A stretch of DNA of 64,000 bases from the NCBI RefSeq assembly GCF_014863585.1, contig NZ_CP062253.1, forward strand, positions 558,001-622,000, given 5' to 3'. The notes beneath the pieces were generated by a model that saw only the letters and a program-made list of their open reading frames with translations, was not told the DNA's origin and ran no database searches. Positions 16,033-41,854 of the stretch are shown piece after piece. Position 1 is the first letter of the stretch, and each line of letters starts with the position of its first letter. The DNA is from Pseudomonas gozinkensis (GTDB lineage: Bacteria > Pseudomonadota > Gammaproteobacteria > Pseudomonadales > Pseudomonadaceae). The position numbers and the translations under genes are program-made.

Positions 16033-16368
16033 TTGACCATCAAAGCGGCTATCACCATCGGCGCATTTTCCCTGGCATTGTCCGGCTGCGGCACCGCCGT
16101 CTCCGTGTTGCAGGATGACGAAGCCGCCACGCGCGGCCTGCGCAAACAGAAGACCTATTGTCAGTCGATTCCGCGCGTCTACAGCGGGCTCGCCCATGAT
16201 TTCTGCCTGCTGCACGCGCCGCCCGATCCTACCGGCATTCTGGTGCCGGTCGTCCTGCTCGACCTGACCCTGTCCGGCGTCTTCGATACGGCGTTCCTGC
16301 CGTATACGATCTATCGCCAGGCGGTGGACGGGAATATCAGTGTTTATTGGCGATCAAGCCGGGGGTAG
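16033..16368 (+). CDS. Small YceK/YidQ-type lipoprotein
   Basis: Predicted outer-envelope lipoprotein of 111 aa. The N-terminus has a signal peptide ending in the lipobox LALSGC (Cys19), followed by CGTAVSVLQDDEAA. The C-terminal half (LVPVVLLDLTLSGVFDTAFL...YTIYRQ) is like the DUF1375 YceK/YidQ family, whose function is unknown. A TTG at 16033 was taken as start because GGAGGG at 16021-16026 is well placed; the upstream ATG frame has no such site. The gene lies 160 bp after the kinase operon. Confidence 0.75.
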   Translation: MTIKAAITIGAFSLALSGCGTAVSVLQDDEAATRGLRKQKTYCQSIPRVYSGLAHDFCLLHAPPDPTGILVPVVLLDLTLSGVFDTAFLPYTIYRQAVDGNISVYWRSSRG

Positions 16369-16373
16369 ATACC

Positions 16374-17126
16374 TTGCCCCCAACCAGCGAATACAGCGAT
16401 GTCATCGTTTATGTCGATGAGAGCGGAGATCACGGGATGCAGACACTGGATCCCAACTATCCAGTCTTCGTGCTCGCGTTTTGTGTCTTTCATAAGAGGC
16501 ATTACTGCGAGAAAGTCATTCCTGCTCTACAGAAATTCAAGTTTGCACACATGGGACACGATTTGATCGGTCTGCATGAGCTCGAAATTCGTAAAGAAAA
16601 GGGAGCGTTTTCTGGCCTTTTCATGTCCAGAGAACACAAGAATGCTTTTCTTGAGGAGCTGACTTGCATCATTGAAGGCAGCAACTTCGTTCTGATCAGT
16701 TGCGTCGTAGACAAGGCTTCCCTTCGCGAGAAACAAGGCACGGGACACAATCCTTATCACCTCGCTCTCGGCTTTTGTCTGGAAACGCTCTATGAGTTTT
16801 TGCAAGAGAAGAATCAACAAGGGGCACTGACGCACGTGATTTTCGAGCGCCGAGGAAAGCGCGAGGATAACGAGCTTGAGTTGGAGTTTCGCAGGATGTG
16901 TGGTGGGGCGAATCGATGGGGTATTCAACTGCCGTTTGACATAGTTTTTGCAACCAAACAGGTGAATTCCACCGGCCTGCAGCTAGCCGATCTTGTTGCG
17001 AGGCCCATTGGCATGAGCGTGTTGAGGGCGGGGCAGGGAAACCGTGCTTTTGACGTGCTCAAGCGCAAGTTCTATTGCAGCGGGGGCGGAGCAAAGTTGG
17101 AGAGGGTTTCGAGAATTGGGGTTTGA
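16374..17126 (+). CDS. DUF3800 domain protein (putative RNase H-fold), probable insertion
   Basis: Protein of about 250 aa with the DUF3800 signature: VIVYVDESGDHG at the N-terminus and the C-terminal QLADLVARPI, which supply the acidic residues of a predicted RNase H-like fold. Such genes are common in mobile and defence-associated regions but their function is unproven. The start is uncertain: TTG 16374 follows a GGGGG stretch at good spacing, and TTG 16347 would overlap the lipoprotein by 22 bases. Codon use is visibly AT-richer than in the LPS genes on either side. As remembered, the gene is absent from the P. aeruginosa cluster, which suggests horizontal acquisition. Confidence 0.75.
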   Translation: MPPTSEYSDVIVYVDESGDHGMQTLDPNYPVFVLAFCVFHKRHYCEKVIPALQKFKFAHMGHDLIGLHELEIRKEKGAFSGLFMSREHKNAFLEELTCIIEGSNFVLISCVVDKASLREKQGTGHNPYHLALGFCLETLYEFLQEKNQQGALTHVIFERRGKREDNELELEFRRMCGGANRWGIQLPFDIVFATKQVNSTGLQLADLVARPIGMSVLRAGQGNRAFDVLKRKFYCSGGGAKLERVSRIGV

Positions 17127-17142
17127 AGATTTTCCCATCCCC

Positions 17143-17221
17143 AAAAAGCGAAAAGCCCCGGTGATCTCACCGAGGCATCAACGCCGACCGGGATCTCCCA
17201 GTCCATTTGCAGGGGAGTCTA
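17143..17221 (-). ncRNA. Putative small RNA with own promoter and terminator
   Basis: On the minus strand a sigma-70 promoter TTGACG (17244-17239), 17-bp spacer, TAGACT (17221-17216) is followed by about 65 bases. These end in a 9-bp stem (17176-17168 with 17163-17155) and the U-rich tract UUUUCGCUUUUU. A first hairpin GACUGGG-AGAU-CCCGGUC lies at 17203-17186. Both stems contain one G-U pair on the minus strand that would be a C-A mismatch on the plus strand. Both have the loop AGAU. This argues for a minus-strand RNA. There is no minus-strand gene downstream for it to lead. I cannot match it to a named RNA. Confidence 0.65.
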
Positions 17222-17291
17222 AGTTGAAGCTTCTGTTGCGTCAACGCACCGGCCGGCCAGTTCCGCTAGAGGTTTGTCGGCGCTTTTAAGC

Positions 17292-39708: not shown

Positions 39709-39718
39709 GGCCGGGTTC

Positions 39719-41854
<2,136 letters not shown>

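Follow-up and report, generated by a model that had tools for sequence, protein, structure and literature searches.

The predicted small RNA encoded beside a DUF3800 gene, on the minus strand of the window (the whole stretch of 64,000 nucleotides of Pseudomonas gozinkensis DNA analysed here), is, judging from comparison with its relatives, real, and phage look-alikes of its core hairpin suggest an unrecognised RNA-based immune system together with viral decoys. By the same comparison of sequences, the RNA is paired with DUF3800, is structured, has spread horizontally, outlasts the gene, has copies in phages and comes in a second type that matches one clade of DUF3800 proteins. With regard to function, we consider it an evenly balanced proposition that the RNA restrains a nuclease within an anti-phage cassette and that the phage hairpins act as decoys.

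The RNA consists of a promoter, three helices and a terminator, all on the minus strand. It appears to start near 17208-17210 and to end near 17143, with a length of ~66 nt. The features of the locus are as follows:

16347..17126, plus strand: DUF3800 gene (PF12686, 70.7 bits against a cut-off of 21), convergent with the RNA
17140..17208, minus strand: small RNA, covariance-model match of 88.4 bits (the window copy is itself among the rows of the model)
17239..17244, minus strand: -35 element TTGACG (TTGACA or TTGNNN in many relatives)
17216..17221, minus strand: -10 element TAGACT, separated by a 17-nt spacer from the -35 element, with a conserved AAATGG 7 nt further on
17186..17203, minus strand: helix 1, GACUGGG-AGAU-CCCGGUC, the module that recurs in phages
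17182..17184, minus strand: GCG, the 5' strand of helix 2 (partner strand at 17148-17150)
17155..17176, minus strand: helix 3, GCCUCGGUG-AGAU-CACCGGGGC, which doubles as the terminator stem
17143..17150, minus strand: CGC, the 3' strand of helix 2, and the U-tract (UUUCGCU is invariant in alignment A1)

The TTGACG-17 nt-TAGACT promoter and the minus-strand hairpin with its U-tract, both pointed out in the preliminary description, are present in the sequence, and the short GCG/CGC helix can be added to the two hairpins recognised there. The AGAU loops of these two hairpins are likewise seen in the window copy, but the shared loop is coincidental, as the hairpin loops differ among relatives. In many relatives, helix 3 is antisense to the final codons of the DUF3800 frame. 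No minus-strand gene follows the RNA, in agreement with the original view that it is not a leader, and a leader or attenuator was rejected on this ground. A multicopy repeat or MITE was rejected as well, given that the RNA is present in a single copy in its own genome.

Taken by themselves, the scans for promoters and terminators do not rise beyond chance: a 2.5-kb region contains 1 promoter-like site, against 0.9 in shuffled sequences, and 3 terminator-like sites, against 3.0. We nevertheless consider the small RNA certain because it is conserved: in 47 of 53 distinct relatives, a sigma70-like promoter ends 6-9 nt upstream of the conserved start (mean 6.0, maximum 13 after shuffling), and the RNA is found at every one of the 80 DUF3800 loci described below. 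This conservation also supports the earlier reading of the RNA as an unannotated small RNA that stands alone on the minus strand, equipped with a promoter and a terminator of its own.

The minus-strand fold has a z-score of -3.2 (2 of 200 shuffles were equally good) and a folding energy of -34.9 kcal/mol, against -26.7 kcal/mol and a z-score of -1.7 for the plus strand. A covariance model (R1) was built from the 53 distinct RNA copies; these rows were picked by regular expression, so that helix 1 appears more invariant in them than it truly is. Among these regex-picked rows, a U-G pair is kept in 53 of 53 in one hairpin and in 51 of 53 in the other, and in a wider alignment U-G is found at the helix-1 pair in 57 of 60 RNAs and at the helix-3 pair in 47 of 60. 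The conserved U-G pair in each hairpin favours the minus strand, in line with the strand-specific fold initially proposed on the strength of one such pair per hairpin. The wider alignment has 61 distinct rows, obtained from 63 matches in 66 sources (L213, L240 and L316 fall below its threshold), and was fitted to the model, hence is biased towards the modelled structure; subject to this bias, 99.3% of its cells are paired, and 66 cells have changes on both sides, whereas shuffling gives 10.7 (sd 2.6) and slid controls never exceed 14. Covariation had been named at the outset as a mark of a genuine RNA, and such both-side changes occur at 16 of the 21 pairs among the 61 distinct RNAs. On this model-fitted alignment, the window RNA thus has the covariation-backed structure that characterises DUF3800-associated structured RNAs.

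The RNA can be aligned over its full length in alignments A1 and A4, with no variable guide segment seen. In nine comparisons with L012, the small RNA is 88-97% identical, against 65-71% for the DUF3800 gene DNA; its first 32 nt, which lie outside the DUF3800 frame, are 78-97% identical, and the remainder partly overlaps that reading frame, which qualifies the comparison.

A DNA search of 57 genomes matched 14 of them, including that of the window; several of these matches cover the hairpin part only, and three of the matching genomes belong to different families within the order (G038, G040 and G053). With the window DUF3800 protein as the query against genome contigs, 135 loci were found, 80 of which were kept, spanning Pseudomonas, Burkholderiales, Gallionella, Sphingomonadales and others. 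The RNA is present at all 80 (68 by regular expression and 12 by R1) and is always convergent, overlapping the 3' end of the DUF3800 gene or lying just past it. The adjacency to the gene that defines DUF3800-associated structured RNAs accordingly holds at 80 of 80 loci.

Strong R1 copies (at least 53 bits) are present in 27 of 249 Pseudomonas genomes, 18 further genomes with only 27-29.5-bit matches having been set aside, as a matter of judgement, as chance. DUF3800 is found in 19 of the 249 at E 1e-10, with the RNA beside the gene in 19 of 19; none of the 249 has DUF3800 without the RNA, and in 8 the RNA stands alone, with no DUF3800 match at this threshold. The RNA adjoins a carbamoyltransferase gene in 18 of the 27 Pseudomonas copies, in line with the notion, put forward in the preliminary description, of a trans-acting or antisense small RNA in envelope or LPS control. 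However, because the LPS junction accounts for 18 of 27 copies, it is one site of several, and in unrelated taxa (Burkholderiales, Gallionella, Sphingomonadales), on rhizobial plasmids and in phages the RNA follows DUF3800, not LPS genes. An envelope small RNA is unsupported by this distribution and was rejected; we give it almost no credence.

Among the 8 genomes that have the RNA only, 5 copies adjoin the carbamoyltransferase gene. The stems are preserved in these 8 of the 249 genomes and a TTGAC-type -35 element was seen by eye in 6 of the 8, so that the RNA is conserved in strains lacking DUF3800, as had been expected of a true RNA. The copies at L113, L115/L116, L117 and L118 retain, as judged by eye, differing scraps of the DUF3800 3' end, and these differences suggest repeated loss of the gene, with the RNA staying behind. 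Furthermore, the DUF3800 match is split in 3 of the 19 Pseudomonas genomes (G118, G227 and G231) and contains a stop in 2 others (G068 and G161), all with the RNA kept; the stop in G068 may be the natural end of the protein. That the RNA outlives the protein may merely reflect its small mutational target.

In a sample of the phylum (398 genomes), the RNA (E up to 1e-4) was found in 13 genomes, in 9 of these beside DUF3800, whereas DUF3800 proteins of some kind are widespread, being encoded in 80; the RNA therefore belongs to a part of a bigger family. Unrelated convergent terminator-like hairpins were seen by eye downstream of other-branch DUF3800 genes (L173, L179 and L195). It may be that DUF3800 genes more generally come with a convergent RNA.

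Judging from where its copies are located, the cassette of RNA and DUF3800 spreads horizontally. Among plasmid records, DUF3800 relatives are found on 45 and the small RNA on 30, including 22 of Sinorhizobium, and on rhizobial plasmids the RNA adjoins DUF3800. The Pseudomonas aeruginosa phage JBD68 has both DUF3800 (gp43) and the RNA (49.5 bits), in the Paracoccus phage Pkon1 DUF3800 is accompanied by a weak model match (15 bits) and, downstream, by the exact helix-1 pattern, and one further phage record, from Latilactobacillus, matches DUF3800 at 26% identity. There was no match in E. coli genomes. The mobility of the unit, and the occurrence of RNase-H folds in transposases, could point instead to a transposable-element end that folds as a hairpin at the DNA level and is not a transcript; with a promoter conserved in 47 of 53 relatives, strand-specific U-G pairs and a single copy in its own genome, the chance of this is very slight. 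At two loci (L198 and L208), a member of this RNA family (48.4 and 44.8 bits) occurs with no DUF3800 detected in the fetched stretch and adjoins a 429-aa open reading frame that is integrase-like by eye.

The DUF3800 protein is predicted to fold like RNase H. For an AlphaFold2 model of the relative L013 (pLDDT 85.6, pTM 0.81), the top structural match in the PDB is RNase HII (E 3.7e-4, TM 0.40/0.50), with RNase HI and PIWI proteins ranking lower and not significant; a search of the PDB by DUF3800 sequence gave no match. Residues D44, E45, E187, E193, D194 and D235 (L013 numbering) are invariant and are candidate catalytic residues. By eye, the window copy, compared with its relatives, is frame-shifted near the C-terminus and is without the conserved GLKxFP end. 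An RNase-H fold with catalytic rearrangement is reported for DUF3800, and putative ncRNAs are found together with it (PMC10910872); some CRISPR systems are accompanied by DUF3800 (PMC10910872, PMC12669027). The literature passages mentioning DUF3800 that were searched, most subscription papers and preprints lying outside the search, contain no mechanism for DUF3800, nor this RNA or a phage mimic of it. Some observations run against our interpretation: PADLOC gave no match, and a DUF3800 gene (subfamily not given) is listed among the strain-specific essential genes of Legionella (PMC7811196), which, at least in Legionella, disfavours DUF3800 as the harmful partner.

Structured RNAs linked to DUF3800 are already a known kind, the names of which are said to come from Weinberg 2017; the window RNA reaches the gathering score of no Rfam 15 family. 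The families DUF3800-I (RF02969), DUF3800-VI (RF02915) and DUF3800-IX (RF02968) likewise are structured ncRNAs near a DUF3800 gene, but none reaches its gathering threshold in the window, at the 13 loci from the DNA search or at 10 DUF3800 loci. DUF3800-VI and -IX, seen at two other loci, precede the DUF3800 gene on its own strand (-IX by ~1.2 kb), whereas the window RNA is convergent and downstream. A weak resemblance to RAGATH-16 (RF03047; 23.5 bits) stays below the gathering score of 65.6 and has no counterpart at the loci of 10 other members (E up to 2). Elsewhere in the window, a TPP riboswitch is found at 39713-39818 on the plus strand (84.9 bits).

Two other classes of systems offer analogies. 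In TnpB/IscB systems, the gene for an RNase-H/RuvC-like protein has a structured RNA, the omega RNA, at its 3' end, and the window cassette resembles this in the location of its RNA and in the predicted RNase-H-like fold of DUF3800, a putative nuclease. Unlike an omega RNA, however, the window RNA is located on the opposite strand and is constant to both ends, i.e., it is alignable end to end and is not divided into a variable guide and a constant scaffold. Type III antitoxins are tandem-repeat RNAs encoded upstream of the toxin and co-transcribed with it, and the toxin has a ToxN-like nuclease fold. The window RNA is single and convergent, not a co-transcribed tandem repeat, and the top PDB match of DUF3800 is RNase HII, not a ToxN-like fold. 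By analogy, the type III system ToxIN (PMC3475682) shares with the cassette the proposed logic of a nuclease held by a structured RNA and of phage RNA mimics, whereas the window system has an RNase-H-like protein and a single, repeat-free, convergent RNA with its own promoter, and inhibition is here a proposal. IS607 TnpB is reported to come with an RNA derived from RAGATH-18 (PMC11061315).

We propose a two-gene mobile cassette in which an RNase-H-fold DUF3800 protein would operate together with a convergent ~66-nt RNA transcribed from a sigma70-type promoter. The protein would recognise helix 1, stacked on the GCG/CGC helix, as its binding site in the RNA, and the RNA, similarly to an antitoxin, would hold the nuclease inactive. 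Phage infection, e.g., through the shut-off of host transcription, would lower the amount of the RNA and free the nuclease, and phages with the same hairpin in their own transcripts would keep the nuclease inhibited, the hairpins serving as decoys. The decoy step has a precedent in pseudo-ToxI, a phage mimic of an RNA antitoxin (PMC3475682).

Viral contigs contain at least 120 loci with the helix-1 pattern (type 1, with 3-6 loop bases), compared with 6 when the pattern is reversed; in bacterial genomes it is found in 5 of 274, including its own genome, with 1 for the reversed control. Among the matches listed, DUF3800 adjoins 28 of the 120 viral loci, and the fetched stretches at the other 92 contain no DUF3800. 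The latter observation bears on the idea that the RNA regulates DUF3800 mRNA in cis by pairing with its 3' end. In many relatives, the 3' half of the RNA indeed runs antisense to the final part of the DUF3800 frame, but helix 1, which lies past the stop codon, is among the most conserved parts, the folding is preserved by compensatory change and the phage modules mostly stand apart from the gene; we leave cis-antisense regulation a slight chance.

After removal of near-copies and too-short flanks, the 92 listed loci without DUF3800 yield 44 distinct flanks. Among the matches listed, 20 of the 44 form a flanking stem of at least 6 pairs, whereas 1000 flank shuffles give 5.2 such flanks on average (maximum 13), and the mean stem score is 7.86, against 4.75 (sd 0.25) when shuffled; the other 24 have no 6-pair stem. 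A frequent phage geometry is stem-UUU-GGAYUGGG-loop-CCCGGUCG-stem, with UUU at the junction of module and stem in 16 and AAU in 10 of the 44 flanks (again among the matches listed). The cellular RNA, the 5' end of which begins shortly before GGAYUGGG, has the same parts split, with the GCG-CGC pairing and then UUU at the 3' end. Since these parts are split in the cellular RNA and joined in the phages, the phage hairpin appears to copy the core of the RNA in permuted and uninterrupted form. When 8 chosen phage examples were folded, the expected hairpin was obtained, with z below -3 in 5 and -2.0 in one; two of the 8 (L370 and L250) have no excess stability. Among the 121 type-1 matches listed (the 120 viral ones and the window copy), the loop has 4 bases in 75, 5 in 33, 6 in 7 and 3 in 6. 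These varying lengths do not fit a single reading frame, and a protein-coding motif was rejected on this basis; some type-1 matches do look like codon matches (e.g., L229, L269-L271, L285 and L307).

Head or virion genes lie near 7 of 17 scanned type-1 loci (L199, L210, L239, L253, L278, L281 and L316), with L323 as an eighth, weak case; the other neighbours are an exonuclease, a regulator or no known family. These genes, the presence of one module in both the RNA and phage transcripts, and the predicted RNase-H-like fold of DUF3800 would also suit a sensor, in which DUF3800 would be loaded or primed by the small RNA as its cofactor and would recognise the hairpin in phage transcripts as a trigger or substrate. 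A trigger should be selected away, yet different phages retain the module sequence in differing stems, and distantly related phages dispense with it, which makes a sensor unlikely in our view. The type-1 module is absent from all 12 stretches of named phages (3.6-3.9 kb around distantly related capsid or scaffold genes, with up to 2 mismatches allowed), and a universal phage element was rejected; this absence fits an optional decoy and gives it no positive support.

A tRNA gene lies within 300 nt of the module at 5 of 48 viral loci (L283, L249, L254, L203 and L353), against a mean of 1.3 (maximum 4) in 1000 draws of random places; these sites are possibly an accessory hot spot. In a group of related viral contigs (L228, L232, L244, L255, L323 and similar ones), the module stands just 5' of a gene starting with MGVYRGI, and its stem has GGC at the junction, not UUU.

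The second RNA type, which includes that of JBD68, reads GGGUUGCG-loop-CGCGGCCG. The 12 type-2 DUF3800 proteins form one clade (support 98/95; 1 change against 10.7 when shuffled), in a tree that includes near-copies and in which many of the 12 rows had been found through the type-2 pattern. Type 1 requires 3 changes on this tree, 2 of the 45 rows of which conform to neither type. In viral contigs, the type-2 pattern occurs at 36 loci, against 12 for the reversed pattern, with DUF3800 at 12 of the 36; several of the remaining loci are likely coding or chance, and four groups (L352, L353, L354 and L368) are hairpin-like by eye. The type-2 flank test is not significant (a 6-pair stem in 2 of 9 flanks, where the null gives 1.2 and at most 4), and the neighbours at the 4 scanned loci are exonuclease, helicase and integrase genes. 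The type-2 hairpin is found, with one mismatch each, in the P. aeruginosa phages PP9W2, phi1 and PACT201, which are 3 of 82 records resembling L365, itself chosen for the module. P. aeruginosa is thus host to both the type-2 cassette of JBD68 and these three phages.

In PP9W2, the type-2 module is located between the nin region and tRNA/holin genes, and elsewhere some modules lie within terminator-like stems. Phage put RNA is an antitermination element that works in cis on RNA polymerase. The module might bind another phage or host factor (e.g., RNA polymerase, in antitermination), for which the cassette RNA would compete. We regard this as quite improbable: type 2 marks a single DUF3800 clade, which is unexpected for a general host factor, and the module is as rare in bacterial genomes as noted above.

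Returning to the decoy interpretation, we put forward, tentatively and with some doubt, a broader claim, namely, that this is a new form of RNA-protein immunity in which an RNA controls an RNase-H-like nuclease, and that phages repeatedly acquired its ~22-nt protein-binding module as an unbroken hairpin matched to the nuclease type of the host. If true, phages would carry sequence-typed RNA decoys, and the phage-bacteria arms race would gain an RNA-mimicry front. The minimal RNA partner, its apparent recognition module in two types and the natural phage copies of this module make the function of the large orphan DUF3800 family directly testable. Similar flanks surround a type-1 module in L278 (3485-3555) and a type-2 module in L354 (5865-5935), as if one module had been exchanged for the other within a single phage element.
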